A stretch of 64,000 nt of DNA. Source: Variovorax paradoxus (lineage in GTDB: Bacteria > Pseudomonadota > Gammaproteobacteria > Burkholderiales > Burkholderiaceae_C). Shown here one piece after another: positions 20,951-41,059 of the stretch. The notes under the pieces are model-generated. The model was not told where the DNA came from, made no database searches, and saw nothing but the letters and a program-made list of their open reading frames with translations. The position numbers were made by a program, and so were the translations under genes. The DNA lies in contig NZ_CP102931.1 of assembly GCF_024734665.1 (NCBI RefSeq), forward strand, positions 618,001 to 682,000, read 5' to 3'. Numbering within the stretch: position 1 is the stretch's first letter; every line of letters begins with the position of its first letter.

Positions 20951-20964
20951 TTGACCGCGATCAA
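20951..20964 (+). promoter_or_regulatory. Fnr-like box upstream of tctC
   Basis: TTGAC-CGCG-ATCAA is a hybrid of the local TTGAC-N4-GTCAA motif and the classical Fnr site. It is 98 bp before the tctC start codon. A weak -10-like CACCAT lies at 20987, the same spacing as at the other boxes. Probably bound by the Crp/Fnr protein encoded at 25220-25867. Confidence 0.55.
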
Positions 20965-21062
20965 GCAGGCGTGAATCAGTGGCGCGCACCATCGTGCCGG
21001 TCCGTATCTCTGCTCAGATCCAAGAACAAAAAAGAGCGAAACACTACACAGGAGACAACCTG

Positions 21063-22082
21063 ATGAAGAAGATCGCTTCGCTCGTTCTGGGTCGTACGAA
21101 GGTCGTTGCCGCGGCCGTTCTGGCGCTGGCAGCCACCACGCCCGCCCTCGCATGGGAACCCACCAAGCCGGTGGAGTTCGTGATACCCGCCGGCACCGGC
21201 GGCGGCGCCGACCAGATGGGGCGCCTGCTGCAGGGCATCGTCATCAAATACAAGCTGATGAAGGAGCCGCTGATCGTCGTCAACAAGTCGGGCGGCGCGG
21301 GCGCCGAGGGCTTTCTGGCGGTGAAGGAAGCCAAGGGCGACCCGCACAAGATCGTCATCTCGCTGTCGAACCTGTTCACCACGCCGATGGCTACGGGCGT
21401 GCCTTTCAACTGGAAGGACATGACGCCTGTCGCCATGCTGGCGCTCGACCAGTTCGTGCTGTGGACCAACGCGACCGAGCCCTACAAGAACGCCGGCGAG
21501 TACATCACCGCGGTGAAGACCGCGGGGCCGAGCAAGTTCAAGATGGCCGGCACGGGCTCGAAGCAGGAAGACCAGATCATCACCGTCGCGCTCGAGAAAG
21601 CCACCGGCACCAAGTTCATCTACGTGCCGTTCAAGGGCGGCGGCGAGGTGGCGGTGCAGCTGGTGGGCGGCCATGTGAATTCGACGGTGAACAACCCGAT
21701 CGAGGCGGTGGCGCAGTGGCGCGCGGGCAAGCTGCGCGCGCTGTGCGTGTTCGACGACGAGCGCATGCCGTTCAAGGCCAAGGTCACGGACACGCAGTCG
21801 TGGAACGACATCCCCACCTGCAAGGAAGCGGGCGTGCCGACCAAGTACACGATGCTGCGCGGCATCTTCATGCCGCCCGGCGTGACGCCCGATCAGCTCG
21901 CGTTCTACAAGGACCTGCTGGTCAAGGTGGCCGCCACGCCGGAGTGGAAGGAGTACATGGAGAAGGGCGCCTTCAACCCGACCTTCATGACCGGCGACGC
22001 TTTCGCGAAATGGCTCACGGAGGCCGAGGCCACGCACCGCACGCTGATGGCTGACGCGGGCTTCCTCGCGAGCAACAAGTAG
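21063..22082 (+). CDS. tctC: Tripartite tricarboxylate transporter substrate-binding protein (TctC/Bug family)
   Basis: This 339-aa periplasmic binding protein captures carboxylates for the TctAB membrane pair. Start ATG 21063 is chosen because AGGAGA precedes it and a typical signal peptide follows (VVAAAVLALAATTPALA). Bug-family features: PVEFVIPAGTGGGADQMGR, VVNKSGGAGAEGF, MAGTGSKQEDQI and a C-terminal FMTGDAFAKWL. It is the first gene of tctC-tctB-tctA-cytidylate-kinase-like/BON and has an Fnr-like box upstream. Given the neighbours, oxalate or another short dicarboxylate is a likely ligand, but this is inference. Confidence 0.88.
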   Translation: MKKIASLVLGRTKVVAAAVLALAATTPALAWEPTKPVEFVIPAGTGGGADQMGRLLQGIVIKYKLMKEPLIVVNKSGGAGAEGFLAVKEAKGDPHKIVISLSNLFTTPMATGVPFNWKDMTPVAMLALDQFVLWTNATEPYKNAGEYITAVKTAGPSKFKMAGTGSKQEDQIITVALEKATGTKFIYVPFKGGGEVAVQLVGGHVNSTVNNPIEAVAQWRAGKLRALCVFDDERMPFKAKVTDTQSWNDIPTCKEAGVPTKYTMLRGIFMPPGVTPDQLAFYKDLLVKVAATPEWKEYMEKGAFNPTFMTGDAFAKWLTEAEATHRTLMADAGFLASNK

Positions 22083-22206
22083 CCGACAGGCCGCGACGGC
22101 GGCACGCGCCGCGCGGCGCCGCCGGAATGTCGGCGGCCCGACGGACGGCGTGCGCGCCGCATCCGTCCCTTCTTTCTTTCTCACACACAACCACGATGGG
22201 GGCTCC

Positions 22207-22728
22207 ATGGAGCACGACGAAACATCCGAGGGCCCGGCGCGTTCGGGCATCTCCACCCACCTGGTCGAAGCGGCGGTGGCATTGGCGCTGCTGGTGATCG
22301 GCCTGGTGGTGGTCTTCGAGGCGCGCAAGTTGGGCGCGGGCTGGACCACCGACGGCCCCGGCGCAGGCTACTTTCCGTTCTTCATCGGCGTGATCATCAC
22401 GATCTCGGGCGCCGGCATCCTCTACCAGGCACTCCTCGGCAAGAGCCGCAACACCGCAGTGTTCGTCGATTCGGTGCAGCTCAAGCGCGTGCTGTCGGTG
22501 CTGGTGCCGGCCACGGTCTACGTGCTGGCGATCACCTTCCTCGGCATCTACCTGGCTTCGGCGATCTACATCGCGCTGTTCATGGTGGTGCTGGGCAAGT
22601 ACGCGTGGTTCAAGAGCGTGCTTGCCGCGCTGGCGGTCAACACGCTGTTCTTCTTCATGTTCGAGGTCTGGTTCAAGGTGCCGCTGTTCAAGGGCACTCT
22701 CGATCCGCTTCGATTCCTCGGCTACTGA
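22207..22728 (+). CDS. tctB: Tripartite tricarboxylate transporter small membrane subunit TctB
   Basis: This is a 173-aa inner-membrane protein with four predicted helices. Features: LVEAAVALALLVIGLVVVFEARKLG then GPGAGYFPFFIGVIITISG, the hallmark region of TctB. It pairs with TctA for uptake driven by an ion gradient. The start ATG 22207 gives the family length; the upstream 124 bp contain a GC-rich stem-loop (around 22095-22120) that may separate the high-level tctC message from the membrane genes. Confidence 0.85.
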   Translation: MEHDETSEGPARSGISTHLVEAAVALALLVIGLVVVFEARKLGAGWTTDGPGAGYFPFFIGVIITISGAGILYQALLGKSRNTAVFVDSVQLKRVLSVLVPATVYVLAITFLGIYLASAIYIALFMVVLGKYAWFKSVLAALAVNTLFFFMFEVWFKVPLFKGTLDPLRFLGY

Positions 22729-22752
22729 ACCTACTCACGGAGCACAAGCGAA

Positions 22753-24288
22753 ATGGAAGAAATCAGTGCCCTGATGCAGGGCTTTTCAGTGATCCTCACG
22801 CCGATGAACATCGGCCTGATGTTCGTCGGCATCATCCTCGGCGTGTTGATCGGCGTGCTGCCTGGCCTCGGCGGTGCCAACGGCGTGGCGATCCTGCTGC
22901 CGCTCACCTTCACGATGTCGCCGACCTCGGCCATCATCATGCTGTCGTGCATCTACTGGGGTGCACTGTTCGGCGGGGCCATCACCTCGATCCTGTTCAA
23001 CATCCCGGGCGAGCCATGGTCGGTGGCCACCACCTTCGACGGCTATCCAATGGCGCAGAACGGGCAGGCCGGCGCGGCACTCACGACGGCCTTCACATCG
23101 TCGTTCGTGGGCGCCTTTCTCGCGGTGGTGATGATCACCTTCCTCGCGCCGCTGGTCGCCAGGTTCGCGCTCAAGTTCGGCTCGCCCGAATTCTTCGCGG
23201 TGTACTTGCTGACCTTCTGCAGCTTCGTCGGCATGGGCAAAGGGTCGCCCTTCAAGATCCTGGCGTCGATGGCACTGGGCTTCGCACTTGCGAGCGTGGG
23301 CATGGACACCGTCACCGGCCAGCTGCGCCTGACCTTCGGCCAGCCCGAGCTGATGCGCGGCTTCGACTTTCTGATTGCGGTGATTGGCCTGTTCGGTATC
23401 GGCGAAATTCTCCTGTCGATGGAAGAGGGCCTCAAGTTCTCCGGCAAGAGCGCGAAGATCGATCCCAAGGTCGTGTGGCAAACGTGGAAGCAGCTGCCCA
23501 AATACTGGGTGACCTCCATCCGCAGCTCGCTCATCGGCATCTGGATGGGCATCACGCCCGGCGGCGCGACACCAGCCTCGTTCATGAGCTACGGACTTGC
23601 CAAGAAGATGTCGAAGAAGGGCGCCAAGTTCGGCACCGGCGAAATGGAAGGCGTGGTCGCACCCGAGACCGCCGCGCACGCCGCCGGCACCAGCGCGCTG
23701 CTGCCGATGCTGGCGCTGGGCATTCCCGGCTCGCCAACTGCTGCCGTGCTGCTGGGCGGCCTGCTGATCTGGGGCCTGCAGCCCGGTCCGCTGCTGTTCG
23801 TCGAGCAGAAAGACTTCGTCTGGGGCCTGATCGCCAGCATGTACCTCGGCAACATCGTCGGCCTGATCGTGGTGCTCAGCACCGTGCCGCTGTTCGCGTC
23901 GATCCTGCGCATTCCGTTTTCGATCATTGCGCCGGTGATCATCGTGATCTGCGCGATCGGCGCCTACACCGTGCACAACGCGATGCTCGACATCTGGTTC
24001 ATGCTCGGCTTCGGCGTGATGGGCTATCTCTTCAAGAAGCTCGACTTTCCGCTCGCGCCGCTGGTGCTTGCACTGGTGCTCGGCGACAAGGCCGAAGACT
24101 CGTTCCGCCAGGCCATGCTGGTGTCGCAGGGCGACGTCATGGTGATGTTCTCGAATCCGCTGGTCGGCGGCATCACCACGCTGGCGCTGGTGCTGCTGTT
24201 CTGGCCGCTGATCTCCAAGGCGCTGGCGCTGCTCAACAGAAAGCCGAAGAAGCCCGACGAGTTCGCGGTCGAACGGCCGGTGGACTGA
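22753..24288 (+). CDS. tctA: Tripartite tricarboxylate transporter large membrane subunit TctA
   Basis: This is a 511-aa integral membrane permease with about 10-12 helices. Conserved motifs: GVLPGLGGANGVAILLPLTF (about 36-55), ILFNIPGEPWSVATTFDGYPMA, and the second internal glycine loop GITPGGATPASFMSYGLAKK. Start has GGAG upstream. It is cotranscribed with tctC and tctB, and followed by the kinase-like/BON gene 22 bp later. With an OxlT homologue in the same cluster, the cell probably has two routes for the same or related substrates. Confidence 0.9.
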   Translation: MEEISALMQGFSVILTPMNIGLMFVGIILGVLIGVLPGLGGANGVAILLPLTFTMSPTSAIIMLSCIYWGALFGGAITSILFNIPGEPWSVATTFDGYPMAQNGQAGAALTTAFTSSFVGAFLAVVMITFLAPLVARFALKFGSPEFFAVYLLTFCSFVGMGKGSPFKILASMALGFALASVGMDTVTGQLRLTFGQPELMRGFDFLIAVIGLFGIGEILLSMEEGLKFSGKSAKIDPKVVWQTWKQLPKYWVTSIRSSLIGIWMGITPGGATPASFMSYGLAKKMSKKGAKFGTGEMEGVVAPETAAHAAGTSALLPMLALGIPGSPTAAVLLGGLLIWGLQPGPLLFVEQKDFVWGLIASMYLGNIVGLIVVLSTVPLFASILRIPFSIIAPVIIVICAIGAYTVHNAMLDIWFMLGFGVMGYLFKKLDFPLAPLVLALVLGDKAEDSFRQAMLVSQGDVMVMFSNPLVGGITTLALVLLFWPLISKALALLNRKPKKPDEFAVERPVD

Positions 24289-24310
24289 AACACAACGAGG
24301 AGCCAAAGAC

Positions 24311-25147
24311 ATGCCTGTGATCGCACTGACCCAGGAGATGGGTTCCCTCGCGAAAGACGTTTCGCTCAAACTTGCCGAAACGCTCGGCCTCGCCGTGATG
24401 CGCCACGAAGTCATCGAGCACGTGGCAGACCGCATGCAGGTCTCCACGAGCCTGATAGGCCGGCTGCGCGGCGGCAAGGCCGGCCTGGTGGAGCGCCTGA
24501 CCACCGACTCGCGCAGCGTGGCGCTCTACACCGCCGAGGAGCTGTTCGCGCTGGCCGACCGTGGCAATGTGGTGCTGCGCGGCTGGGGTGCCACCTGCCT
24601 GCTGCGGCCGGTGCCGCACGTGGTGTGCGTGCGCATCACGCGCTCGTTGAAGAAGCGCGTCGAGTGGCTGATGGGCGACCTCGAAACCGACGACGCCGAA
24701 TTCGCCGAAGCCGAGATCCGCCGCAGCGACCAAGCGCACGCCGCCCGCATGCACGCGCAGTTCGGCGTGACCTGGGGCGACCCGGTGCTCTACGACCTGG
24801 TGCTCAACACCGATCGTCTGTCGGTCGAGAGCTGTGTCGAGCAGATCCGGCTGATGGTGAGCCGCCCCGAGTTCGCAGAAACGCCCGCATCGCGTGCGCT
24901 GCTTGCCAACATGGCGCTGGAAGCACGTGTGCGCGCTGCGTTGAAGGAGCATGAGGCAACGCGCGACATCAACGTGACGATCACGGCGAACCAGGGCGAG
25001 GTGATGTTGCGCGGCATCGTGCTCAACAGTGACGAGCGGGCGCAGACCGAGGCAGTTGCGGCGGAGGTGTCTGGTGTCAGCGGGGTCCACAACCAGTTGA
25101 GGCTGATGGCCAGCACGCGGCGCTTTGCTTCGGCGAAGCAGACCTGA
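24311..25147 (+). CDS. Cytidylate-kinase-like protein fused to a BON domain
   Basis: This is a 278-aa two-part protein. Residues 1-200 match the cytidylate-kinase-like family (IALTQEMGSLAKDVSLKLAETLGL, then MRHEVIEHVADRM, LRGWGATCLL, and a C-terminal LNTDRLSVESCVEQI). The expected P-loop is degenerate (QEMGSLAKD rather than GxxGxGK), so NTP binding may be altered. Residues about 205-270 form a BON domain (VRAALKEHEATRDINVTITANQGEVMLRGIV, then VSGVSGVHNQLRL), a fold that binds lipids or small ligands. It is the last gene of the tct operon. A sensory or regulatory job is more likely than nucleotide metabolism; this is inference. Confidence 0.75.
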   Translation: MPVIALTQEMGSLAKDVSLKLAETLGLAVMRHEVIEHVADRMQVSTSLIGRLRGGKAGLVERLTTDSRSVALYTAEELFALADRGNVVLRGWGATCLLRPVPHVVCVRITRSLKKRVEWLMGDLETDDAEFAEAEIRRSDQAHAARMHAQFGVTWGDPVLYDLVLNTDRLSVESCVEQIRLMVSRPEFAETPASRALLANMALEARVRAALKEHEATRDINVTITANQGEVMLRGIVLNSDERAQTEAVAAEVSGVSGVHNQLRLMASTRRFASAKQT

Positions 25148-25174
25148 GCGCGAGGCTCCGAATTCCCGATTTGC

Positions 25175-25200
25175 TCCCTCTCCCGCAAGCGGGAGAGGGA
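25175..25200. terminator. Bidirectional stem-loop between two convergent genes
   Basis: TCCCTCTCCCGC-AA-GCGGGAGAGGGA is a perfect 12-bp inverted repeat with a 2-nt centre, placed between the convergent kinase-like/BON and crp genes. It probably ends both transcripts. Similar CTCCCTCTCCCGC palindromes are widespread intergenic repeats in proteobacteria, so it may also be a mobile repeat copy. Confidence 0.65.
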
Positions 25201-25219
25201 ACCAATCCCTCAGCCGTGC

Positions 25220-25867
25220 CTAAATCTTCCCCCGCTTCCTCAATCGACTAAGGGTTTCTGCTGAGAGATTCAGATACGAAGCCAGCTCCTTGCTCGGAAT
25301 CCTGTCCTCAAGCTCCGGATGCTTTCGGATGAACCGATGCACGCGCCCCGCCGCATCGAGCAAATGCAGCGTGATCGTGTGCGCCATGATCTCGCTCATG
25401 CCCCGCATCACCAGGAACTCGAACAGTTCCTTGGTTTCCGCATGTCGGTTCAAAAAGGCGATCCATTCCTTCAGCGGAAGGCTCGCCACCCGCGCCTTCG
25501 TCACGCAGACGATGCCGTAGGGCGTCGGCGTGCCCAGCCGCAGCGCGGCATAGCTCGTTTCCATGTCGTTCTCGTCGGCGAAGCGAAGGATCATTTCCTT
25601 GCCCTCCGGGTTGCTCACTACCCGCTTGAGGATGCCGTCGAGGATGAAGTATTGCTCCATCTCCCGCACCCCCTGGTGCAGCAGGAACTCGCCCTTGTTG
25701 CCGTCCACGATGACGAGATGGGTTTCCAGTTCGGCGCGGTCGGCTTCGCTCAGGTCCTTGAGAAGGATGTTCTGCCGGAGCTGGGCACGAATGATGTTTT
25801 TCTCCGGGTGGTTTTCCAACAACGTCATGGTCACCGTCTTGCTCGATTTTTTCGCTGCCGGCGCCAT
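25220..25867 (-). CDS. Crp/Fnr family transcriptional regulator, likely oxalate/formate regulator
   Basis: This 215-aa protein has a cyclic-nucleotide-binding-like jelly roll (about 30-140, with GNKGEFLLHQGVREMEQYFILDGILKRV) and a C-terminal helix-turn-helix. The recognition helix reads SAETLSRLRKRG; the E-x-x-S-R pattern is that of Fnr, which contacts TTGA half-sites. There is no N-terminal cysteine cluster, so it does not sense oxygen through an Fe-S centre as Fnr does. The domain lacks the cAMP-contacting RxS motif of Crp. The gene is divergent from oxc, and five TTGAC-N4-GTCAA-like boxes lie in this window. The effector is unknown. Met14 is an alternative start. Confidence 0.85.
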   Translation of the reverse strand: MAPAAKKSSKTVTMTLLENHPEKNIIRAQLRQNILLKDLSEADRAELETHLVIVDGNKGEFLLHQGVREMEQYFILDGILKRVVSNPEGKEMILRFADENDMETSYAALRLGTPTPYGIVCVTKARVASLPLKEWIAFLNRHAETKELFEFLVMRGMSEIMAHTITLHLLDAAGRVHRFIRKHPELEDRIPSKELASYLNLSAETLSRLRKRGKI

Positions 25868-25895: not shown

Positions 25896-25938
25896 TTGAC
25901 CGAGGTCAACGGCCGAAAGCTTGAGCCCGAATCATAGT
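25896..25938 (+). promoter_or_regulatory. Fnr-like box and -10 element of the oxc promoter
   Basis: TTGAC-CGAG-GTCAA (25896-25909) is a perfect 5-4-5 inverted repeat. A -10-like CATAGT begins 30.5 bp after its centre, so the box would be centred close to -41.5, the class II activator position. The box also lies 28 bp from the crp start, suggesting autoregulation. Confidence 0.65.
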
Positions 25939-25981: not shown

Positions 25982-27808
25982 ATGTCTTCAGTCAGAACAG
26001 AGAAAGAGGCAACCACCACGCTGGACGATGCCCTCAAGCCCGTGAAAACCCGCGATGCCGATGGCGAACAAGTGGTTCGCGCCCTCAAGAGCTTGACGGA
26101 AGACACGCCGGCCGCCGAGACCATCGACGGCTTCCATCTTGTCATCGATGCGCTCAAGCTCAACGACATCGACACCATCTTCGGCCTGCCCGGCATCCCG
26201 ATCACCGACCTCACGCGCATGGCACAGGCCGAAGGCCTGCGTGTCATCTCGTTCCGCCACGAGCAGCATGCCGGCAACGCAGCGGCAGCAGCTGGCTTCC
26301 TCACGCAGAAGCCCGGCATCTGCCTCACGGTGTCGGCCCCCGGCTTCCTCAACGGCCTCACAGCGCTGGCCAACGCCACCACCAACTGCTTTCCGATGAT
26401 CCTCATCAGCGGCTCCAGCGAGCGCGAGATCGTCGACCTGCAGCAAGGCGACTACGAGGAAATGGACCAGCTCGCCATCGCCAAGCCGCTGTGCAAGGCC
26501 GCCTTCCGCGTGCTGCACGCAGAAGACATCGGCGTGGGCATTGCACGCGCCATCCGTGCTGCACTGTCGGGCCGCCCGGGCGGCGTGTACCTCGACCTGC
26601 CCGCCAAGCTGTTCGCCCAGACCATGGACGCAGCGGCCGGCAAGAAGTCGCTCATCAAGGTGGTCGACCCCGCGCCGCGCCAGATCCCCGCACCTGACGC
26701 CGTCAAGCGCGCGCTCGACCTGCTCAAGGGCGCAAAGCGTCCGCTGATCCTGCTCGGCAAGGGCGCCGCCTATGCGCAGGCCGACGCCGACATCCGCGCA
26801 TTCGTCGAGAAGACGGGTATTCCCTACCTGCCGATGTCGATGGCCAAGGGCCTGCTGCCCGACACCCATGTGCAGTCGGCCGCCGCTGCGCGCTCCTACG
26901 TGCTGCAGGAAGCCGATGTGGTGCTGCTGGTCGGCGCGCGCCTCAACTGGCTGCTCTCGCACGGCAAGGGCAAGACCTGGGCGCAGGAAAAGGGCGCCAA
27001 GCAATTCATCCAGATCGACATCGCACCGACCGAGATCGACAGCAACGTTGCCATCGAAGCGCCGGTGATCGGCGACATCGGCTCCTGCGTTGCCGCGCTG
27101 CTGGCCGGCATCGATGCCAAGTGGGCCAAGCCGCCGGCCGAATGGACCGGCGCGATTGCCGAGCGCAAGGACAAGAACCTGTCGAAGATGGCCGTCACGC
27201 TGGCCGCACGGCCTTCGCCGATGAACTTCCACAGCGCGCTCAGCGTGATCCGCGACCAGGTGAAGGCGCGGCCCGATGCCATCGTCGTCAACGAAGGCGC
27301 CAACACGCTCGACTTCGCGCGCAGCATCGTCGACATGTACGAGCCGCGCAAGCGCCTGGACGTGGGCACCTGGGGGATCATGGGCATCGGCATGGGCTTC
27401 TCGGTGGCCGCGGCCGTGGTCACCGGCAAGCCGGTGATTGCCATCGAGGGTGACAGCGCCTTCGGCTTCAGCGGCATGGAGGTGGAAACCATCTGCCGCT
27501 ACAACCTGCCCATTTGCGTCATCGTCTTCAACAACAACGGCGTGTATCGCGGCACCGACGTGAACGCCAGCGGCACACCCGACGTGGCGCCCACCGTGTT
27601 CGTCAAGAACGCGCGCTACGACAAGCTGATGGAAGCCTTCGGCGGCGTCGGCGTGCATGCCACCACTGCCGATGAACTTCAAAAGGCCCTGGCCGAGGCG
27701 GTTGCCTCAGGCCGGCCGACCCTGATCAACGCCGTCATCGACGAGACCGCCGGCACCGAAAGCGGCCGCATCACGAGCCTGAACCCCAGCACGGCGAAGA
27801 AGAAGTAA
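25982..27808 (+). CDS. oxc: Oxalyl-CoA decarboxylase
   Basis: This 608-aa cytosolic ThDP- and Mg-dependent enzyme converts oxalyl-CoA to formyl-CoA and CO2. Seen: [16 protein letters not shown] and the ThDP-activating Glu in [16 protein letters not shown] (Glu94), the central domain, and the ThDP/Mg motif beginning [11 protein letters not shown] (about 490) and closing with FNNNG. The protein is about 40 residues longer at the N-terminus than the well-studied Oxalobacter enzyme; start ATG 25982 has AAGGAGA. It heads the operon oxc-frc-PAS-frc2 and has an Fnr-like box at class II spacing. An acetolactate-synthase assignment is unlikely because [11 protein letters not shown] and the neighbours are oxalate-specific. 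Confidence 0.95.
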
Positions 27809-27839: not shown

Positions 27840-29102
27840 ATGAGCAGCAGCAACAACAAACCACTCAGCGGCATCAAGATCATCGACTTCACGCACGTGC
27901 AAGCCGGTCCCGCCTGCACGCAGATGCTGGCCTGGTTCGGCGCCGACGTCATCAAGGTCGAGCGCCCCGGCGCTGGCGACGTCACGCGTTCGCAGCTGCG
28001 CGACATTCCCGATGTCGATGCGCTGTACTTCACCATGCTCAACAGCAACAAGCGCTCGCTGACGCTGGACACCAAGCAGCCCGAAGGCAAGGTCGTGCTG
28101 GAGAAGCTGATCCGCGAATCCGACGTGCTGGTCGAGAACTTCGGCCCCGGCGCACTCGACCGCATGGGCTTCACCTGGGAGCGCATCCAGGAACTCAACC
28201 CCAAGATGATCGTCGCCTCGGTCAAGGGCTTCAGCGACGGCCACCACTACGACGACCTGAAGGTGTACGAGAACGTTGCGCAGTGCGCCGGCGGCGCCGC
28301 CTCGACCACCGGCTTCTGGGACGGCCCGCCCACCGTGAGCGCCGCGGCGCTCGGCGACAGCAACACCGGCATGCACCTGGCCATCGGCATCCTTACGGCC
28401 ATCATCGGCCGCCAGCAGACTGGCAAGGGCCAGCGCGTGGCCTGCGCGATGCAGGACGCGGTGCTCAACCTCTGCCGCGTGAAGATGCGCGACCAGCTGC
28501 GCCTGGACAAGCTCGGCTACCTGGAGGAATACCCGCAGTACCCGCACGGCACCTTCAGCGACGTGGTGCCGCGCGGCGGCAATGCCGGCGGCGGCGGCCA
28601 GCCGGGCTGGGTGCTCAAGTGCAAGGGCTGGGAGACCGACCCGAACGCCTACATCTACTTCACGGTGCAGGGCCATGCCTGGGCCCCGATCTGCGACGCC
28701 ATCGGCAAGCCGGAGTGGAAGACCGACCCCGACTACACGACCCCGAAGGCACGTCAGCCGCACATCACCGACATCTTCGCGACCATCGAGGGCTGGCTGG
28801 CCGACAAGACCAAGTTCGAGGCGGTCGACATCCTGCGCAAGTTCGACATTCCCTGCGCACCGGTGCTGACGATGAAGGAACTGCTGCACGACCCGTCGCT
28901 GCGCGCCAGCGGCTCCATTGTCGAAGTGCCGCACAAGGAGCGCGGCAGCTACTTCACCGTGGGCAGCCCGATCAAGTTCTCGGACCTCAAGCCCGAGATC
29001 ACCGGCTCGCCGCTTCTGGGTGAGCACACCGAGGAAGTGCTGGCGGAGCTGGGCTACAGCAAGGACCAGATCTCCAACCTGCGCGAAGCCAAGGCTGTGT
29101 AG
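27840..29102 (+). CDS. frc: Formyl-CoA:oxalate CoA-transferase, first copy
   Basis: This 420-aa class III CoA-transferase moves CoA from formyl-CoA to oxalate, closing the cycle with Oxc. Seen: [26 protein letters not shown] at the N-terminus, [11 protein letters not shown], the catalytic Asp173 in ALGDSNTG, the mobile glycine loop NAGGGGQPG (about 250-258) and [14 protein letters not shown] precedes the start. It follows oxc by 31 bp. A second, clearly related copy lies at 29620; the two differ around the active site (LGDSNTGMH versus IGDSGTGLH), which may reflect different CoA donors. Confidence 0.93.
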
Positions 29103-29176: not shown

Positions 29177-29623
29177 ATGCAAACGAACCTGGATTTCAAG
29201 CAGCTCGTCGAAGGCGCCGGCGACGCGATCATGGTGTGCGATGCGGCAGGCGCGATCACGTTGTGGAACCGCGCCTCCGAGCGCATCTTCGGCTTCACCG
29301 AAGCCGAGGCGCTCGGCAAGTCGCTCGACCTGATCATTCCCCAGCGGCAACGCCAGCGGCACTGGGACGGCTACAACAAGACGATGGAAACCGGCGTCAC
29401 CAAATACGGCGCCGACCTGCTGCGCGTACCGGCGCTGCACAAGGACGGGCACACGCTTTCGATCGCCTTCACGGTGTCGATGCTGTTCTCCGCCGATCAC
29501 GAGGTCACGGGCATCGTTGCCATCGTTCGCGACGAGACCGCCCGCTTTGCCGAGGAGCGCAAATTGCGCGCCCGTCTGGTAGAAGTCGAAGCCACGATGA
29601 TCAAAGAAGGAGACAGTCAATGA
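29177..29623 (+). CDS. Single PAS-domain protein in the oxalate operon
   Basis: This 148-aa protein is almost entirely one PAS domain (residues about 8-125: [23 protein letters not shown], then [22 protein letters not shown] and a typical C-terminal [19 protein letters not shown]). A short helix with coiled-coil character follows. There is no kinase, HTH or cyclase output domain. Its stop overlaps the start of the second frc gene (29620-29623), so the two are translationally coupled. It may sense a ligand or redox state and act through a partner such as the neighbouring CoA-transferase; this is inference. Confidence 0.85.
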
Positions 29624-30867
29624 GCAAAGCACTCGAGGGCGTTCGAATCCTCGATTTCACCCATGTGCAGTCCGGCCCCACCTGCACCCAACTGCTGGCC
29701 TGGTTCGGCGCCGACGTGATCAAGGTCGAGCGTGCAGGCGAAGGCGACGCAACGCGCGGCCAGTTGCGCGACATTCCCGGTGCGGACAGCCTCTACTTCA
29801 CGATGCTGAACCACAACAAGCGCTCGATCACGCTGGACACCAAGAAGCCCAAGGGCAAGGAAGTTCTCGACAGCCTGATCAAGACCTGCGACGTGCTGGT
29901 CGAGAACTTCGCGCCCGGCGCACTCGACCGCATGGGCATTACCTGGGCCCACATCCAGAAGCTCAATCCGCGAATGATCGTAGCCTCGGTCAAGGGCTTC
30001 GGCCCCGGCAAGTACGAGCACTGCAAGGTCTACGAGAACGTGGCCCAGTGCGCCGGCGGCGCGGCATCGACCACCGGCTTCGAGGACGGCCCGCCGCTCG
30101 TGACCGGCGCGCAGATCGGCGACAGCGGCACCGGCCTGCACCTGGCGCTCGGCATCCTTGCCGCGCTGTTCCAGCGCAACAGCACCGGGCGTGGCCAGCA
30201 GGTGCTCGCGCCGATGCAGGACGCCGTGCTCAACCTCTGCCGCGTGAAGATGCGCGACCAGCAGCGCCTGGAACGCACCGGCACCATGCACGAGTACCCG
30301 CAGTACCCGGACGGCAAGTTCGGCGATGCAGTGCCGCGCGCCGGCAATGCATCGGGCGGCGGCCAGCCCGGCTCGATTCTCAAGTGCAAGGGCTGGGAGA
30401 CCGACCCCAACGCGTACATCTACTTCATCACGCAGGCCGCAGTGTGGCCGGCGGTGTGCAAGGTCATCGGCGAAGAAGGCTGGATCAACGACGAGGCCTA
30501 CGCCACGCCGGCAGCGCGCCTGCTGCACCTGAAGCCGATCTTCGCGCGCATCGAGCAATGGACCATGACCAAGACCAAGTTCGAGGCCATGGACATCCTC
30601 AACGAGTACGACATTCCCTGCGGGCCGATCCTCTCGATGAAGGAGATCGCCGCGGACGAATCGCTGCGCGAGACCGGCACCATCGTCGAGGTCGACCACC
30701 CGGTGCGCGGCAAGTACCTGACGGTGGGCAACCCCATCAAGATGTCCGACAGCCCGACGGTGGTGACGCGTTCGCCGTTGCTCGGCGAACACACCGAGGA
30801 AGTGCTGCGGCAACTCGGCTATGGCGCGGACGAGCTGGAGACATTGCGCGCCGAACGCGTGATCTGA
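29620..30867 (+). CDS. frc: Formyl-CoA:oxalate CoA-transferase paralogue, second copy
   Basis: This 415-aa class III CoA-transferase is close to the first copy along its whole length. Catalytic Asp168 is in QIGDSGTG; the glycine loop reads NASGGGQPG, with one Gly replaced by Ser compared with copy one. AAGGAGA precedes the start, which overlaps the PAS gene stop. In Acetobacter a Frc-like enzyme uses succinyl-CoA to start oxalate activation; the succinyl-CoA synthetase genes that follow here make such a role for one copy plausible, but I cannot decide which copy from sequence alone. Confidence 0.9.
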
Positions 30868-35741: not shown

Positions 35742-37156
35742 GACGCACACGCAGCGCAAAGATCGTCGCCACGCTCGGCCCGGCCACCACCGACGAGCCG
35801 GCCATCCGCGCGCTGTTCGAGCGTGGCGTGGACGTGTTCCGGCTCAACTTCAGCCACGGCACGCAGCACGACCATGCGCGGCGGCTGGAAACCATCCGCC
35901 GTTTGGAGAAAGAATTCAACCGGCCGATCGGCATCCTGCTCGACCTGCAGGGGCCGAAGCTGCGGCTGGGTACTTTCGAAGGCGGCCGCGCGCAGCTCGA
36001 TGCGGGCGCGCGCTTCCGGCTCGACATGGACAAGACCAGCGGCAGCGCACGCCGCGCGCCGCTGCCGCATCCGGAAATCTTCGCCGCGCTGCAGGACGGT
36101 ACCGAGCTGCTGCTCGACGACGGCAAGCTGCGGCTGCGCGTGGACAGCCACGGCGCCGACTTCGCAGAGACCACGGTGCTGGTCGGCGGGCCTATCTCCG
36201 ACCGCAAGGGCGTGAACGTGCCGAGCGTGCTGCTGCCGATCTCGCCGCTGACACCGAAGGACCGCGACGACCTCGACTTCGGCCTGTCCATGGGCGTCGA
36301 CTGGGTTGCGCTCTCGTTTGTGCAGCGGCCCGAGGACATCGAGGAGGCGCGCGCCATCATCGGGACGCGCGCCTGGATCATGGCCAAGCTGGAGAAGCCC
36401 GCCGCCATCGAGCACCTGGACGCGATCGTCGCGCTGTGCGACGGCCTGATGGTGGCGCGCGGCGACCTTGGCGTGGAGCTGCCGCCAGAGCAGGTGCCCG
36501 AGCTGCAGCGCCTGATCGTGCGCGCCTGCCGCAAGGGCGGCAAGCCGGTGGTGGTGGCGACGCAGATGCTCGAGTCGATGATCGCCTCGCCGGTGCCCAC
36601 GCGCGCCGAAGTGTCAGACGTTGCGACCGCCATCTACGACGGCGTCGATGCGGTGATGCTCTCGGCTGAATCGGCTTCGGGCAAGTACCCGCTCGAAGCG
36701 GTCGCGATGATGGACCGCATCATCGTGCGCGTGGAGGCTGATCCTTCATACCGCGCGGGCATCGACGCCACGCACGATGCTGCGCTGTCGACCACGGCAG
36801 ATGCTGTCTGCGCCTCGCTGCGCCAGGTGGCCGCGCTGCTCGCGCCAGCCGCCACCGTGACGTACACCTCCTCGGGCTTCACCAGCCTGCGCGCGGCGCG
36901 CGAGCGCCCGGCCGTGCCGATATTGAGCCTCACGCCCGACACCGTCGCGGCGCGCCGCATGGCGATGGTCTGGGGCGTGCATGCGGTGCTGGTCGACGAC
37001 GTGCACGACGTGGGCGAGATGATCGAATGCGCCTGCCGCACGGCACGCACCGAGGGCTTCGCGAAGGCGGGCGACGACGTGGTGGTGGTCGCGGGGCTGC
37101 CCTTCGGGCAGTCGGGCACGACGAACCTGTTGCACGTCGCGCGAATACCGGACTGA
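35738..37156 (+). CDS. pyk: Pyruvate kinase
   Basis: This 472-aa glycolytic enzyme converts PEP and ADP to pyruvate and ATP. Motifs: KIVATLGPATTDEPAIRALFERGVDVFRLNFSHG at the N-terminus, LDLQGPKLRLG, WIMAKLEKPAAIEHLD (catalytic Lys region), MVARGDLGVELP and VATQMLESM, then SDVATAIYDGVDAVMLSAESASGKYP. The length is that of a complete enzyme with the C-terminal regulatory domain. It is translationally coupled to the panE-like gene, which is unusual for a housekeeping pyk and suggests use during C2 growth, when PEP is made from glyoxylate-derived intermediates. Confidence 0.93.
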   Translation: MRRTRSAKIVATLGPATTDEPAIRALFERGVDVFRLNFSHGTQHDHARRLETIRRLEKEFNRPIGILLDLQGPKLRLGTFEGGRAQLDAGARFRLDMDKTSGSARRAPLPHPEIFAALQDGTELLLDDGKLRLRVDSHGADFAETTVLVGGPISDRKGVNVPSVLLPISPLTPKDRDDLDFGLSMGVDWVALSFVQRPEDIEEARAIIGTRAWIMAKLEKPAAIEHLDAIVALCDGLMVARGDLGVELPPEQVPELQRLIVRACRKGGKPVVVATQMLESMIASPVPTRAEVSDVATAIYDGVDAVMLSAESASGKYPLEAVAMMDRIIVRVEADPSYRAGIDATHDAALSTTADAVCASLRQVAALLAPAATVTYTSSGFTSLRAARERPAVPILSLTPDTVAARRMAMVWGVHAVLVDDVHDVGEMIECACRTARTEGFAKAGDDVVVVAGLPFGQSGTTNLLHVARIPD

Positions 37157-37232
37157 AGCGGACTGAGCGCGCGGCGTCAGCGCAGGTGTTGCGCTGTACG
37201 ATGCCGCTCGACTGCAGCCACCTTCTTTCCCG

Positions 37233-38180
37233 ATGAAGCATGCGACCCTGCGCCAGTTGAAAGTCTTCGAGGCAGTGGCGCGGCTGCTGAGTTTTTCGCG
37301 CGCGGCCGAGGAGCTTCATCTCACGCAGCCCGCCGTCTCCACGCAGGTGCGCAAGCTCGAGGAACACGCGGGCAATGCGCTGTTCGAGCAGTTCGGCAAG
37401 AAGATCTACCTCACGCCCGCGGGCACCGAACTGCTGCAGATCAGCCGCGCGATCATTCAGCAGTTCGAGGCGGCCGAGAACGCGATGATGCAGTTCAAGG
37501 GCGTCTCGGGCGGAAAGCTCAACGTGGGCGTGATCAGCGCGGGCGACTACTTCTTTCCGCGCCTGCTGGTCGAGTTCGCTAGCCGCCACCAGGGCGTGAC
37601 GCTGAACTTCACGGTGCACAACCGCGCGGGGCTGCTGACCCACATTGCCGAGAACCTCACGGACCTCGCGATCATGGTGCGGCCGCCGACCGATCTCGAC
37701 ACGGTCAACCAGCCGTTCGCACCGCACCCTTACGTGATCGTCGCGGCACCGGGCCACCCGCTGGTGGGCGTGAAGAAGATCCCGATGGCGCGGCTGATGC
37801 GCGAGCCCTTCGTGGTGCGCGAGAAAGCATCGGACACCTGGCATTCGATGGAAGACGGCTTTGGCGGCGATCTGAGCGGCATCAACATCGCAATGGAAAT
37901 CCGCAGCACCGAAACCATCAAGCAGGCGGTGATTGCGGGTATGGGCGTGAGCTTCGTGTCGGCCCACACGGTGAGCCAGGAGATGCGCGCGGGCAGTCTC
38001 TGCGTGCTCGATGTCGAAGGCTTTCCGCTGATGCTCAACTGGTACGTGGTGCACCGCCGAAGCAAGCGCCTGCCGCCGGTGGCGCAGGCCTTCAAGGACT
38101 TTCTGCTGAGCGACGGGCCGTCGCTGATCTCGCAGATCGTGCCGTTCGGGAACCACAAGGAAAAAGAGCGCGGCGAGTAA
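37233..38180 (+). CDS. LysR family regulator, CbbR-like
   Basis: This 315-aa LysR protein has the helix-turn-helix MKHATLRQLKVFEAVARLLSFSRAAEELHLTQPAVSTQVRKLEE (residues 1-44) and an effector domain beginning KLNVGVISAGDYFFPRLL. The N-terminal pattern is typical of CbbR-type regulators of carbon fixation and C1 genes. It follows pyk by 76 bp and ends in a terminator hairpin, so it may be the last gene of the second oxalate operon or have its own promoter. The target is unknown; the neighbouring oxlT and fds genes are candidates. Confidence 0.85.
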   Translation: MKHATLRQLKVFEAVARLLSFSRAAEELHLTQPAVSTQVRKLEEHAGNALFEQFGKKIYLTPAGTELLQISRAIIQQFEAAENAMMQFKGVSGGKLNVGVISAGDYFFPRLLVEFASRHQGVTLNFTVHNRAGLLTHIAENLTDLAIMVRPPTDLDTVNQPFAPHPYVIVAAPGHPLVGVKKIPMARLMREPFVVREKASDTWHSMEDGFGGDLSGINIAMEIRSTETIKQAVIAGMGVSFVSAHTVSQEMRAGSLCVLDVEGFPLMLNWYVVHRRSKRLPPVAQAFKDFLLSDGPSLISQIVPFGNHKEKERGE

Positions 38181-38196
38181 CTCGCGCGCGCTCTTT
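38163..38196 (+). terminator. Terminator overlapping the LysR stop codon
   Basis: AAAGAGCGCGGCGAG and CTCGCGCGCGCTCTTT form a strong stem with one mismatch, the TAA stop being the loop. A short T-run is part of the right arm. It ends the plus-strand transcript and, symmetrically, may stop the small minus-strand gene at 38223. Confidence 0.65.
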
Positions 38197-38222
38197 GTGG
38201 GGGAGGGGTCCGGTGCGGCGGC

Positions 38223-38387
38223 TCAACGCTGCACTGCCGCCCTGCGGCGTTGCATCAGCGCGGCGCGTGCGGCCTTGTAGAAGATCACGATCGGCAGTGC
38301 GGCGAACAGCTCGCGCATTGCGTCGTTGGCGGTGGACGAAGAGGCAGGGGTACGGAGGCTGCTGGAATTCAGGGTGGTGTGGCTCAT
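38223..38387 (-). CDS. Small 54-aa protein beside an Fnr-like box
   Basis: This 54-aa frame begins MSHTTLNSSSLRTPASSSTA and ends MQRRRAAVQR; the middle (ELFAALPIVIFYKAARAALM) is amphipathic with a basic tail. GGAG lies 8 bp before the ATG, and upstream are an ACCCT/AGGGT repeat block and a perfect TTGACCTAGGTCAA box. These support expression. It may bind a membrane or nucleic acid, but no family is recognised. Confidence 0.6.
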   Translation of the reverse strand: MSHTTLNSSSLRTPASSSTANDAMRELFAALPIVIFYKAARAALMQRRRAAVQR

Positions 38388-38428
38388 TGAGGGCTCCAAA
38401 GGATTGAATCTAAAAGACCGAAGGGATT

Positions 38429-38452
38429 ACCCTGAATTTTAGGGTTTACCCT
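38429..38452. promoter_or_regulatory. ACCCT/AGGGT inverted repeats
   Basis: ACCCT (38429-38433), AGGGT (38441-38445) and ACCCT (38448-38452) alternate upstream of the 54-aa gene, forming two overlapping palindromes, one of which is AGGGTTTACCCT. Position between the start codon and the Fnr-like box suggests a repressor site. Confidence 0.4.
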
Positions 38453-38482
38453 AGACGAGAGCAAACGCCATTTTCGCGTTTC

Positions 38483-38496
38483 TTGACCTAGGTCAA
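38483..38496 (-). promoter_or_regulatory. Fnr-like box upstream of the 54-aa gene
   Basis: TTGACCTAGGTCAA is a perfect 14-bp palindrome fitting TTGAC-N4-GTCAA. It lies 96 bp before the small minus-strand gene and 511 bp before oxlT, so the small gene is its likely target. Confidence 0.55.
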
Positions 38497-38819
38497 TTTT
38501 TTCGGAGGCAGACAGGTTCTTGCGTAGGCCAGAAACCCGTCTGCGGGAGCGCTTCCGGAGCACATGACGGAGCGAGCAACGCGCATCGCAAATTCATGAA
38601 GGCCATCGCACGGGCCATCGAAAGTTCGCGCGAAGACTTCCGCGATTTTTTCTTCATCGCAATGCCATCGCATCGCGCGATGCACATCGCATGCAGCGTG
38701 ATGCGTGCACGCATCGCAGTGTGTTCAGTGCGGCATCCGACACACGCAAAATGCGCGCGCAACGAGACCTCGTGCTAGGGATATCACGGGGGTCCCACGA
38801 GAGCGCGATTCGTGTGAAC
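38497..38819. other. Intergenic region with repeated GCATCGCA motifs
   Basis: No gene is supported. The stretch is rich in GCATCGC/GCGATGC motifs and holds a perfect 16-bp palindrome GATGCGTGCACGCATC (38700-38715). A 60-codon plus-strand frame from 38596 has no Shine-Dalgarno and ends in low-complexity sequence. Confidence 0.4.
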
Positions 38820-38861
38820 TTGACTGAGGTCAAGAGTTTTTGAGTCGCTCGGTCCGACAGT
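38820..38861 (+). promoter_or_regulatory. Fnr-like box and -10 element of the oxlT promoter
   Basis: TTGAC-TGAG-GTCAA (38820-38833), extended to CTTGAC...GTCAAG, with a -10-like GACAGT at 38856-38861. The distance from box centre to hexamer (29.5 bp) and the hexamer itself are identical at the fds promoter (41018). Confidence 0.65.
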
Positions 38862-39007
38862 CATTCACGCGCAGAAAACTGGTGATCCCAATGCCGTGTA
38901 GCGATGCCAAGGAAACCTCGTCGCCTTTCGATGCGCACCGATCGCTCGACTGATTGCTCTGTATTCGCAGCCTGTCGGACTTAAACGAAAACACCAAGGA
39001 CAACTCC

Positions 39008-40333
39008 ATGACTCGGCCCACCTCCACGACCGCGGGTTCCAACCCCGCGATGTACCCCCCGTCCGAAACCTATGGCGCCACCGCGACGCGGTCCGAGGCG
39101 TTCCGATGGGGGCAGTTGCTGATCGGCATCGTCTGCATGGCGATGATCGCGAACCTGCAGTACGGATGGACGCTCTTCGTCAATCCGATCGCAGACAAGC
39201 ACGGCTGGAGCCGCGCCGCGATCCAGGTCGCGTTCACCATCTTCGTGCTCACAGAGACATGGCTCGTGCCCATCGAAGGCTATCTGGTCGACCGCTTCGG
39301 CCCGCGTCCGGTGGTGCTGGTGGGCGGCGTGCTGTGCGGCCTGGGTTGGGTGCTCAACTCGGTGGCCGACTCGCTGCTGCTGCTGTACATCGCGGCGGCC
39401 GTTGGCGGTATCGGCGCCGGCGCTGTCTACGGCACCTGCGTGGGCAATGCGCTCAAGTGGTTCCCCGATCGCCGGGGGCTTGCCGCGGGCATGACCGCAG
39501 CGGGCTTCGGTGCGGGCTCGGCCCTCACGATCATTCCGATCTCCGCGATGATCAAGTCGAGCGGCTATGAATCTGCGTTTCTGTATTTTGGGATCGGGCA
39601 GGGACTCATCGTGTTCCTGCTCGCATGGATGCTGACCCGCGCGCCCAGCCACTCCAAGGCGTCGAACAGCCGCAACGTGCAGCAGGCGGGCCGCGACTAC
39701 GCGCCGTCCGAGGTGCTGCGTTCGCCCGTGTTCTGGGTGATGTACGCGATGTTCGTGATGGTGGCCGCCGGCGGCCTCATGGCCACGGCGCAGCTCGCGC
39801 CTATCGCCAAGGACTTCAAGATCATGGACGTGCCGGTCAACATCATGGGCCTGGTGCTGCCCGCGCTGACCTTCGCGCTCGCCATCGACCGTGTGCTCAA
39901 CGGGCTTACGCGGCCCTTCTTCGGCTGGGTGTCCGACAAGATCGGTCGCGAGCAGACCATGTTCATCGCCTTCGCGATGGAGTCGGTCGGCATTCTGATG
40001 CTCTACCACTACGGCCAGAACCCAGTGCTCTTCGTGATCCTGACGGGTATCGTGTTCTTTGCCTGGGGCGAGATCTACAGCCTGTTCCCATCGACCTGCG
40101 CCGACACCTTCGGATCGAAGTACGCGGCGTCGAACGCCGGCATGCTCTACACCGCGAAGGGCACGGCCTCGCTGCTGGTGCCGTTGTCGAGCGTGCTCGC
40201 GGCAGCCACCGGCAGCTGGCAGGCGGTCTTCATCGTGGCCAGCGCGGTCAATGCGCTCGCGGCGCTGATGGCGTGGTTCGTGTTGCGGCCGATGCGCCGC
40301 AAGCACATCGAGGCGAGCCGCGTCGTCGAATAA
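39008..40333 (+). CDS. oxlT: OxlT-type oxalate:formate antiporter (MFS)
   Basis: This 441-aa major facilitator with 12 predicted helices is of the OxlT family. It exchanges external oxalate for internal formate across the inner membrane. The family substrate-site basic residues are in place: Arg302 in NGLTRPFFGW and Lys384 in YTAKGTASLL, 82 residues apart, as against 83 (Arg272/Lys355) in Oxalobacter OxlT. NLQYGWTLFVNPI in helix 1 and GAVYGTCVGNALKWFPDRRGLAAG are also typical. Start ATG 39008 with AAGGA. It has its own Fnr-like promoter and two tandem terminators. If formate is fully oxidised by Fds it may work as an oxalate carrier with another counter-ion. Confidence 0.88.
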   Translation: MTRPTSTTAGSNPAMYPPSETYGATATRSEAFRWGQLLIGIVCMAMIANLQYGWTLFVNPIADKHGWSRAAIQVAFTIFVLTETWLVPIEGYLVDRFGPRPVVLVGGVLCGLGWVLNSVADSLLLLYIAAAVGGIGAGAVYGTCVGNALKWFPDRRGLAAGMTAAGFGAGSALTIIPISAMIKSSGYESAFLYFGIGQGLIVFLLAWMLTRAPSHSKASNSRNVQQAGRDYAPSEVLRSPVFWVMYAMFVMVAAGGLMATAQLAPIAKDFKIMDVPVNIMGLVLPALTFALAIDRVLNGLTRPFFGWVSDKIGREQTMFIAFAMESVGILMLYHYGQNPVLFVILTGIVFFAWGEIYSLFPSTCADTFGSKYAASNAGMLYTAKGTASLLVPLSSVLAAATGSWQAVFIVASAVNALAALMAWFVLRPMRRKHIEASRVVE

Positions 40334-40357
40334 ATAGACCAACATCGGCTTTCCGTC

Positions 40358-40381
40358 AGCCGGTACCATCCGGCTTTCTTT
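40358..40381 (+). terminator. First intrinsic terminator of oxlT
   Basis: AGCCGG-TACCAT-CCGGCT followed by a TTTCTTTC tract, 25 bp after the oxlT stop. Confidence 0.8.
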
Positions 40382-40390
40382 CGCCCACGC

Positions 40391-40419
40391 AGCCCTGCCA
40401 TGAAGATGGCAGGGCTTTT
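40391..40419 (+). terminator. Second intrinsic terminator of oxlT
   Basis: AGCCCTGCC-ATGAAGAT-GGCAGGGCT followed by TTTT. The loop contains an ATG in frame with the next gene, which can mislead start calling. Confidence 0.85.
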
Positions 40420-40441
40420 CGCCGATGCACAGGAGCCCGCA

Positions 40442-40939
40442 GTGACCATCTACCGACTTGACGCGCATGAACCGGTCATCGACGCCAGCGCCCGCGTGGC
40501 CGAGAGCGCCAGCGTGATCGGCCAGGTCGTGCTCGCAGCCGGCAGCCGCGTCGGCGCGAATGCGGTGCTGCGCGGCGACAACGAGCCCATCACCATCGGC
40601 CGCGGCAGCCATGTGCAGGCGGGCGTGATGCTGCATGCCGACCCGGGCTATCCGTTGACCATCGGCGACGACGTGACGGTGGAGCCGCATGTGATGCTCC
40701 ACGGCTGCACCGTTGGCGACGGCGCAGTAGTCGGCGAGCACACCATTGCGCTCAACGGCTCGGTGGTCGGCCGTGCGTGCATCGTCGAGTCCGGTTCGCT
40801 GCTGACCGAGGGCAAGGTCTTTCCCGACCGCTCGCGCATCGCGGGCAGGCCCGCGAAGGTGACGGGCGAGGTCGATGACGCCGAGGCCGAAGCGCTTCTG
40901 CGCAGGGCGCGCGACAGCGCCGGTCCCTTCGCCCGTTAG
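40442..40939 (+). CDS. Gamma-class carbonic anhydrase-like (left-handed beta-helix) protein
   Basis: This 165-aa hexapeptide-repeat protein reads ASVIGQVVLAAGSRVGANAVLRGDNEPITIG, then HVQAGVMLHADPGYPLTIGDDVTVEPHVMLHGC. Two His that would bind zinc are present (LHADPGYP and EPHVMLHG), as in gamma-carbonic anhydrases and PaaY-like proteins. The GTG at 40442 with AGGAG 7 bp upstream is the better start; the ATG at 40400 lies inside the oxlT terminator loop. Beside decarboxylase and formate dehydrogenase genes it may handle the CO2/bicarbonate produced, but a thioesterase role, as in PaaY, is also possible. Confidence 0.75.
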   Translation: MTIYRLDAHEPVIDASARVAESASVIGQVVLAAGSRVGANAVLRGDNEPITIGRGSHVQAGVMLHADPGYPLTIGDDVTVEPHVMLHGCTVGDGAVVGEHTIALNGSVVGRACIVESGSLLTEGKVFPDRSRIAGRPAKVTGEVDDAEAEALLRRARDSAGPFAR

Positions 40940-41017
40940 GGCCTTTCCGCACCCTCCCGAAACCCTGCGCGCCCGCAGGGTTTGTGCGCATTGGCACCGT
41001 GCTTGTTTCGGCGGAAA

Positions 41018-41059
41018 TTGACTTGCGTCAAGGCCCCCGGCGCCCGATTCATCGACAGT
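41018..41059 (+). promoter_or_regulatory. Fnr-like box and -10 element of the fds promoter
   Basis: TTGAC-TTGC-GTCAA (41018-41031) with GACAGT at 41054-41059. Spacing and hexamer are the same as at oxlT, placing the box near -41.5. The predicted start is about 135 bp before fdsG, so the leader is long. The rest of 40940-41201 shows no gene. Confidence 0.65.

Follow-up and report, generated by a model that had tools for sequence, protein, structure and literature searches.

The window analysed here is a stretch of 64,000 nucleotides from Variovorax paradoxus (RefSeq assembly GCF_024734665.1, contig NZ_CP102931.1, positions 618,001 to 682,000). It contains an island of oxalate and formate genes in which a gene for a Crp/Fnr-type protein (25220-25867, termed crp below) diverges from oxc, the gene for oxalyl-CoA decarboxylase. 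We find that the crp product is very probably a Crp/Fnr-family class II activator dedicated to oxalate use, predicted from genome comparisons to act through the palindromic box TTGAC-N4-GTCAA. A dedicated Crp/Fnr regulon had been claimed in an earlier note on this DNA, and conservation of the box, co-occurrence of crp with oxc and the layout of the promoters support that claim. The sites and genes concerned are as follows (bp, base pairs; aa, amino acids):

25220..25867, minus strand: crp, Crp/Fnr-type regulator of 215 aa, wingless, with an E-T-L-S-R helix (PF00027); proposed binder of the boxes
25896..25909, plus strand: box TTGACCGAGGTCAA in the gap of the divergent crp and oxc genes, perfect match
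25933..25938, plus strand: -10-like hexamer CATAGT of oxc, beginning 30.5 bp after the box center
25982..27808, plus strand: oxc, oxalyl-CoA decarboxylase, proposed target (TIGR03254, 996 bits, cut-off 739)
27840..29102, plus strand: frc, formyl-CoA transferase (TIGR03253, 731 bits, cut-off 504), presumed to form an operon with oxc
20951..20964, plus strand: box TTGACCGCGATCAA upstream of tctC, a pattern match with one mismatch
20987..20992, plus strand: -10-like hexamer CACCAT of tctC, 29.5 bp from the box center, the weakest of the four groups
21063..22082, plus strand: tctC, tripartite transporter receptor, proposed target (PF03401), substrate presumed
22753..24288: tctA, proposed target together with tctC
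38820..38833, plus strand: box TTGACTGAGGTCAA upstream of oxlT, perfect match
38856..38861, plus strand: -10-like hexamer GACAGT of oxlT, 29.5 bp from the box center
39008..40333, plus strand: oxlT, oxalate/formate antiporter, proposed target (TIGR04259, 670 bits, cut-off 335)
41018..41031, plus strand: box TTGACTTGCGTCAA upstream of fdsG, perfect match
41054..41059, plus strand: -10-like hexamer GACAGT of fds, 29.5 bp from the box center
41202..41735 and 41732..43291, plus strand: fdsG and fdsB, NAD-linked formate dehydrogenase, assigned from the reading frames; proposed target in some lineages
38483..38496, plus strand: box TTGACCTAGGTCAA upstream of a divergent 54-aa gene, perfect match, without a class II hexamer

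NCBIfam and Pfam searches agree with the gene names crp-like, oxc, frc, oxlT and tctC, and a relative of fdsG (L151:8046-8489) matches the NCBIfam formate dehydrogenase subunit gamma with a score below the cut-off. The boxes are located where they had been reported, with perfect copies at 25896, 38483, 38820 and 41018 and a copy with one mismatch at 20951. Four perfect boxes compare with 0.02 expected from dinucleotide shuffling, and none of 100 shuffles contains four or more. Across the single 7.29-Mb contig of the genome there are 10 perfect places, four of them in the window, and 4 places for the reversed pattern; in simulations, 10 places set at random put four or more inside 15.1 kb with a probability of 9.5e-6. 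A looser search allowing two mismatches was dropped: it returned 28 places in the window versus 16.3 expected, a count reached in 1 of 100 shuffles. Loose matches being only mildly enriched, the signal resides in the exact box.

Scanning GTDB genomes with the regulator returned 501 related stretches, and the counts of loci given next refer to the best 80 of these 501. They include Variovorax, Polaromonas, Rhodoferax, Methylibium, Collimonas, Herminiimonas, Oxalicibacterium and others, and many are close Variovorax, so that they do not count as independent events (the regulator is 99% identical to the nearest named record, a Variovorax, L068). Before crp/oxc the box is perfect at 69 of 78 testable loci and has one mismatch at 8 and two at 1 (77 of 78 with at most one). 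Upstream of tctC, 40 of 55 testable loci have a perfect box, 14 have one mismatch and 1 has two (54 of 55 with at most one), and before oxlT the box is perfect in 10 of 12 and has two mismatches in the other 2. In gene bodies of equal length, taken as controls, a match this close (no more than one mismatch) turns up in 1 of 78 (crp/oxc), 3 of 55 (tctC) and 0 of 12 (oxlT) cases. When the half-site was permuted (60 permutations, 80 loci), TTGAC gave 133 matches in 74 loci, with the runner-up at 16 and the median at 0.

A search of 299 genomes of the family located a regulator orthologue of at least 62% identity in 50; the next three paralogues are 44-48% identical, one is 38% identical, and weaker matches follow. 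All 30 family loci read have a TTGA[CT]-N4-[AG]TCAA box before crp, and in 28 it lies within the gap to oxc. The two exceptions are L043, where the divergent gene encodes a thiamine pyrophosphate (TPP) enzyme 27% identical to Oxc, and L064, which reaches a contig end. Within the genus Variovorax (61 genomes searched, 27 with a match), a box precedes oxlT in 25 of 25 loci (21 perfect, 4 with one mismatch; L168, which is the window, to L192, with oxlT at least 79% identical, the lower-identity L193-L197 being excluded). The fds-side box is found in 12 of these 25 loci, with fdsG itself seen behind it in three genomes (L168, L187 and G215, the last via L268). A box before fds is also present in G246 and G168 (L151, L203), has one mismatch in G116 and is missing from the crp-less G212 and G007; by this distribution, fds would be a regulon member only in some lineages.

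The regulator and its proposed main target occur together. Among 399 genomes of the order, 67 contain crp and oxc, 8 only oxc, 9 only crp and 315 neither (Fisher test, 1.4e-56); counted by genus (158 genera), 25 have both and the single-gene classes comprise 6 and 5 (1.0e-18), these p-values overstating independence because the genomes are related. The corresponding numbers in the family draw of 299 are 49 with both, 3 with oxc only, 1 with crp only and 246 with neither. Across a phylum-wide draw of 398 genomes, crp is found in 8 at E 1e-20, all within the order. Four genomes of 6-7.8 Mb from another family of the order contain oxc and lack this crp. In nine genomes that have oxc without crp (G049 and eight of the order draw; loci L198, L218, L219, L221, L228 and L256-L259; G281 was left out), the 550 bp upstream of oxc contain neither a perfect box nor one with a single mismatch.

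We read seven of the nine genomes that have crp only (G810 and G821 were left out). In five of them (G524, G770, G780, G858 and G997) the gene diverging from crp encodes a TPP enzyme that shares 26-27% identity with Oxc; a CoA transferase gene follows it, and a box (one mismatch in G997) separates the two divergent genes. The crp gene of G1006 lies near frc-, oxlT- and panE-like genes. That of G1108 adjoins a gene resembling oxlT, and the sequence read there contains no box. G197 carries both oxc and a TPP enzyme (L155) divergent from crp, again with a box between and a CoA transferase following the enzyme. NCBIfam returned nothing over the cut-off for the L155 enzyme (best PRK05858, 443/587 bits) or for the searched part of the G524 enzyme (L211). 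These TPP enzymes (L265:7115-8809, L260:2626-4251, L261:3385-5040, L262:3545-5170, L263:6722-8368 and L155:12124-13866) possibly constitute a second class of oxalyl-CoA decarboxylase.

Separation of the two genes shows which of them the box accompanies. G197 consists of one contig, on which a tctC-tctA-oxc-frc-fah operon (4.81 Mb) lies apart from crp (5.491 Mb), with oxc 679 kb away from the regulator gene (L154); a perfect TTGACCGCGGTCAA stands before tctC of this unlinked operon. Eight draft genomes of the order draw carry crp on one contig and oxc on another; six are testable (two have no upstream sequence), and in four of these the unlinked oxc is preceded by a perfect box (G744, G661, G787 and G1033, the last with two boxes). 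All four loci read in which crp and oxc are in tandem (L213, L214, L216 and L217, from small genomes of another family) carry the box upstream of oxc rather than upstream of crp. The box is thus retained at unlinked and tandem oxc and therefore goes with the target promoters, and the word 'local', applied to the regulon in the earlier note, proves too narrow.

We analyzed the -10 region in promoters at most 80% identical over 110 nucleotides, aligned on the box center and scored with a matrix of established -10 frequencies. At class II promoters the activator site is centered at -41.5, about 29.5 bp from the -10 element. In the window, CATAGT at 25933-25938 begins 30.5 bp from the box center and GACAGT at 38856-38861 and 41054-41059 begins at 29.5 bp, as had been described. 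For oxc (n = 42) the -10 score is best at offset 30 (z 3.7) and next best at 29 (z 3.5), and CATAGT occurs in 16 of the 42 non-redundant promoters at its window offset. The oxlT promoters (n = 23) score best at offset 29 (z 3.7), and in the fds promoters (n = 5 of 12) this offset ranks second (z 2.7), with GACAGT in 4 of 5. Hexamers at offset 29 include TCATAG, TATGAT, TGATAG and TATCAT before oxc and GACAGT, GACATT and CACAAT before oxlT. The -35 place agrees with TTGACA at a mean of 2.17-2.31 of 6 positions versus 2.28-2.42 in controls, which is no better than random in all four groups. With a -10-like hexamer at 29.5-30.5 bp and no -35 element, the promoters of oxc, oxlT and fds, and more weakly tctC, have the arrangement predicted for class II activation, as the earlier note had proposed for oxc, oxlT and fds.

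The regulator has an N-terminal beta-roll domain of the cyclic-nucleotide-binding type (PF00027, 38.7 bits, cut-off 27.5). No helix-turn-helix (HTH) match was returned by Pfam, and the full winged helix of PF13545 (HTH_Crp_2) is not recognized. The recognition helix of E-x-x-S-R type noted earlier is present as E204-T-L-S-R208 and is invariant in 56 sequences. An AlphaFold model built with these 56 sequences (predicted local distance difference test score 83.8, predicted template modeling score 0.73) contains helices at residues 192-198 and 203-211 and ends with the latter, the recognition helix. Because the stop codon directly follows the aligned C terminus G-K-I in 79 of 80 loci, the wing is missing, and we class the protein as a wingless variant of the Crp/Fnr type that retains its recognition helix.

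Two absences pointed out in the earlier note are confirmed by alignment. Residues of the Crp cAMP cassette are replaced (alignment columns 104-117), with E-T-S-Y-A-A and P-Y almost invariant in their stead, and 49 of 56 sequences have no cysteine among the first 40 aligned residues and none has more than two, some rows starting late. T104, S105, Y106, P116, Y117, K124 and R126 are conserved in the region of the beta-roll pocket. Searched by sequence against the Protein Data Bank, the regulator matches 3dn7 from Cytophaga hutchinsonii best (1.4e-14), followed by CRP and DNR. Foldseek returned GlxR, CRP, DNR and FNR as neighbors among the best 50 rows (template modeling score by query 0.47-0.60, mostly with a root mean square deviation of ∼11, as with turned domains), and 3dn7 scores 0.79-0.80 by target length.

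A close parallel is Escherichia coli CRP with its class II promoters, which shares the CRP fold, the spacing of ∼29.5 bp from site center to -10 element and the lack of a good -35 element. The regulator differs from CRP in having T-S in place of G-E and T-P in place of R-S, positions that we take to be cAMP-binding residues, and in having no wing after the recognition helix; the CRP half-site is TGTGA, unlike the TTGAC found here. With FNR, ANR, FixK and DNR it would have in common the TTGA half-site and the 4-bp center, DNR (3dkw) being both a sequence and a fold match and the FNR structures being fold matches. These proteins bind TTGAT half-sites, and FNR does so with an E-x-x-S-R helix. The regulator is set apart from them by the lack of an N-terminal cysteine cluster, by a proposed half-site whose fifth position is mostly C and by its predicted oxalate targets. 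A short C terminus is shared with 3dn7, a 'cyclic nucleotide binding regulatory protein' (21% identity, with an alignment that runs nearly to its end), and with short Crp/Fnr proteins of Bacteroidota. Relatives of the regulator are present on 31 plasmid records, all less than 60% identical (25-34% in the ten best rows), and at least 20 of these records carry genus names of the phylum Bacteroidota, Chryseobacterium among them. We know of no target or ligand for 3dn7 or for the short Bacteroidota proteins.

We infer from these comparisons that the crp product is the protein that binds the boxes, and that it activates rather than represses. It would bind the palindrome TTGAC-N4-GTCAA, most often in the form TTGACC-N2-GGTCAA, through its E-T-L-S-R helix, stand at about -41.5 of promoters that have no -35 element, and recruit RNA polymerase to oxc-frc, tctC-tctA and oxlT and, in this lineage, also to formate dehydrogenase. 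These promoters should be weak without it. The dimer would become active when its beta-roll domain receives a signal tied to oxalate, for which oxalate itself, oxalyl-CoA and formyl-CoA are the likeliest candidates. Rather doubtful, though worth stating, is a wider proposal, namely an order-wide oxalate regulon under a wingless Crp-type sensor of oxalate or of an oxalyl- or formyl-CoA ester, with a box that exposes the second class of oxalyl-CoA decarboxylase. A Crp-fold sensor of such a ligand would, to our knowledge, be the first of its kind.

Several observations weigh against a dedicated activator acting at all of these sites. Six of the 10 perfect boxes in the genome are near unrelated genes. 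The six adjoin htpG, a LysR gene with small open reading frames, a cupin/LysR pair, an AAA ATPase gene, zapE/lpdA and a pair of short-chain dehydrogenase/reductase and TetR genes, names read from translations and not from family searches. Only one of them, at the AAA ATPase gene (L008), has a class II hexamer, TAGCAT, at 29.5 bp. Perfect places number 142 in 20 crp-bearing genomes and 94 in 20 crp-less ones, a modest difference (reversed control, 55 and 42). The tctC promoters (n = 29) are weak, with offset 29 ranking second (z 2.0). At the 54-aa gene, which we rejected as a class II target, no fitting hexamer is found on either side of the 38483 box (TCTCGT and CTTGCG in the two directions), and the class II layout does not hold here. 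The fds genes have no box in the crp-bearing G046 and G099, the unlinked oxc genes of G783 and G903 have only boxes with two mismatches, and the own crp of G661 has no adjoining box. Finally, G052 (L199) has oxc and three boxes and no crp match; its contig ends just past oxc, crp stands behind oxc and frc in its genus mates G168 and G246, and an assembly gap is a possible explanation.

The crp-less genomes average 4.7 perfect places each versus 2.1 for the reversed pattern (n = 20). Because they too exceed the control, the exact box is not exclusive to the oxalate regulon, and similar sites are probably used by other proteins of the Crp/Fnr family. Nine crp-bearing genomes have their places listed in full (G133, G031, G197, G246, G173, G130, G017, G298 and G145); of the 64 perfect places in these nine, 19 are nevertheless no more than 20 kb away from crp (or, for G197, from the oxc operon not linked to it), with ∼0.6 expected by area. 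The box at the AAA ATPase gene (TTGACCCAGGTCAA, G000:C1:3274110-3274123, L165:9111; TAGCAT at 29.5 bp; gene of 557 aa) is possibly an unlinked target, or else a target of another Crp/Fnr protein.

Among other explanations, the one that survives best, unlikely as we consider it, is that oxalate regulation lies chiefly with the LysR-type protein encoded at 37233-38180, the Crp-like protein being secondary to it. LysR homologues are found in the oxalate islands of many relatives, and in the crp-less G1031 (L258:2153-3052) and G1106 (L259:2267-3163) a LysR gene 62-64% identical to that of the window lies directly upstream of oxc, where its product possibly acts in place of crp. No LysR gene is seen, however, in the limited flanks fetched for many crp/oxc loci, and the palindrome is of the Crp/Fnr and not of the LysR type. 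Both proteins may act.

Somewhat less probable still is that a general regulator of the FNR/ANR type acts at the boxes and ties the oxalate genes to oxygen or redox state. TTGAC-N4-GTCAA is close to the FNR consensus. The earlier note had argued from crp being the only Crp/Fnr gene in the window, which does not settle the identity of the binder, since the genome encodes at least 16 other Crp/Fnr-type proteins judged from translations (L011-L026); crp is favored chiefly by co-occurrence and by the comparison with the FNR-like paralogue given below. One of these paralogues has an FNR-type E-x-x-S-R helix, E-S-V-S-R (L012, G000:C1:3228062-3228811), and the excess of boxes over the reversed control in crp-less genomes, 94 versus 42, fits an FNR-type binder, as does TTGACCTCGGTCAA at L164:6798 in G145, before a gene that we read as uspA-like (no NCBIfam match at 1e-20). 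Genes of the uspA type are often under FNR/ANR control, and other members of the Crp/Fnr family may act at some of the boxes found across the genomes. The box before oxc nevertheless follows crp: all nine crp-less oxc genomes have a relative of the FNR paralogue (E ≤ 1e-25) and no box, and the box-bearing G017 and G504 have no paralogue match at E 1e-25, a comparison in which orthology is loose, matches outside G197 (82%) being only 31-39% identical.

We regard it as improbable that the box is an operator at which the Crp-like protein represses these genes. A repressor over the -35 place would likewise keep the spacing constant; yet matches at that place do not rise above background, which means that the promoters should depend on assistance for transcription, and the distance from box center to hexamer is the class II activator value. 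An autoregulatory site of crp, present elsewhere by chance or duplication, would fit the box in the crp/oxc gap of most named loci and is largely refuted by the boxes at tctC, oxlT, fds, panE and the unlinked oxc, and by the tandem loci.

Plants, soil and diet are rich in oxalate, and its degrading enzymes are well known. We found nothing in the open-access literature on the switch that turns on oxalate-degradation genes in these bacteria, and the target set and site of the wingless Crp/Fnr regulator were not found described. In the parts of the open-access literature available to us no oxalate Crp/Fnr regulon is described, and none came to light when two papers were searched for regulator words (PMC12927642, PMC10192776). 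The oxc-frc-oxlT operon of Cupriavidus oxalaticus comprises the same enzymes and antiporter (PMC9476978, accessible text), and that text contains no word beginning with 'regulat' or 'crp'. CstR of Methylobacterium, considered as a known oxalate regulator, was rejected as CheY-like and unrelated on the available text (PMC13344952).

The predicted activator, its exact site and the predicted promoters make oxalate regulation directly testable in soil bacteria, and regulator and box together may provide an oxalate-responsive genetic sensor. The box could also be used to find missing oxalate genes, among them a transporter, a porin, an acyl-CoA ligase and possibly a second decarboxylase. We observed panE and a gene for a 709-aa NDP (nucleoside diphosphate)-forming acyl-CoA ligase diverging around a box (L159:15096-18412, L206:12332-15708); they are candidates for an oxalyl-CoA reductase and an oxalate-CoA ligase. 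In G173 a box precedes a 528-aa porin-like gene adjoining oxlT (L160:7942-9635, no NCBIfam match at 1e-20), a candidate oxalate porin.

The remaining features of the island are these:

29623..30867, plus strand: second formyl-CoA transferase-like gene, translation resembling frc, presumed member of the oxc operon
38223..38387, minus strand: conserved small gene of 54 aa, its reading frame present in 11 of 12 Variovorax loci that keep its box

The second formyl-CoA transferase-like gene adjoins frc in many relatives, and a gene for a cytidylate-kinase-like protein with a BON domain (24311-25147) sits between tctA and crp and is syntenic in many relatives. In Variovorax sp. J22R133 the crp gene has an in-frame stop under the matched coordinates (L096:10001-10627), and a full oxalate island adjoins it. 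In 12 of 25 Variovorax loci the box of the 54-aa gene is found at an unchanged position with the same flanking sequence. Beyond it lies a strongly conserved stretch, GTCTAGGGTAAACCCTAAAAT, with TAAAAT ∼48.5 bp from the box center, a distance nearer to class I spacing.

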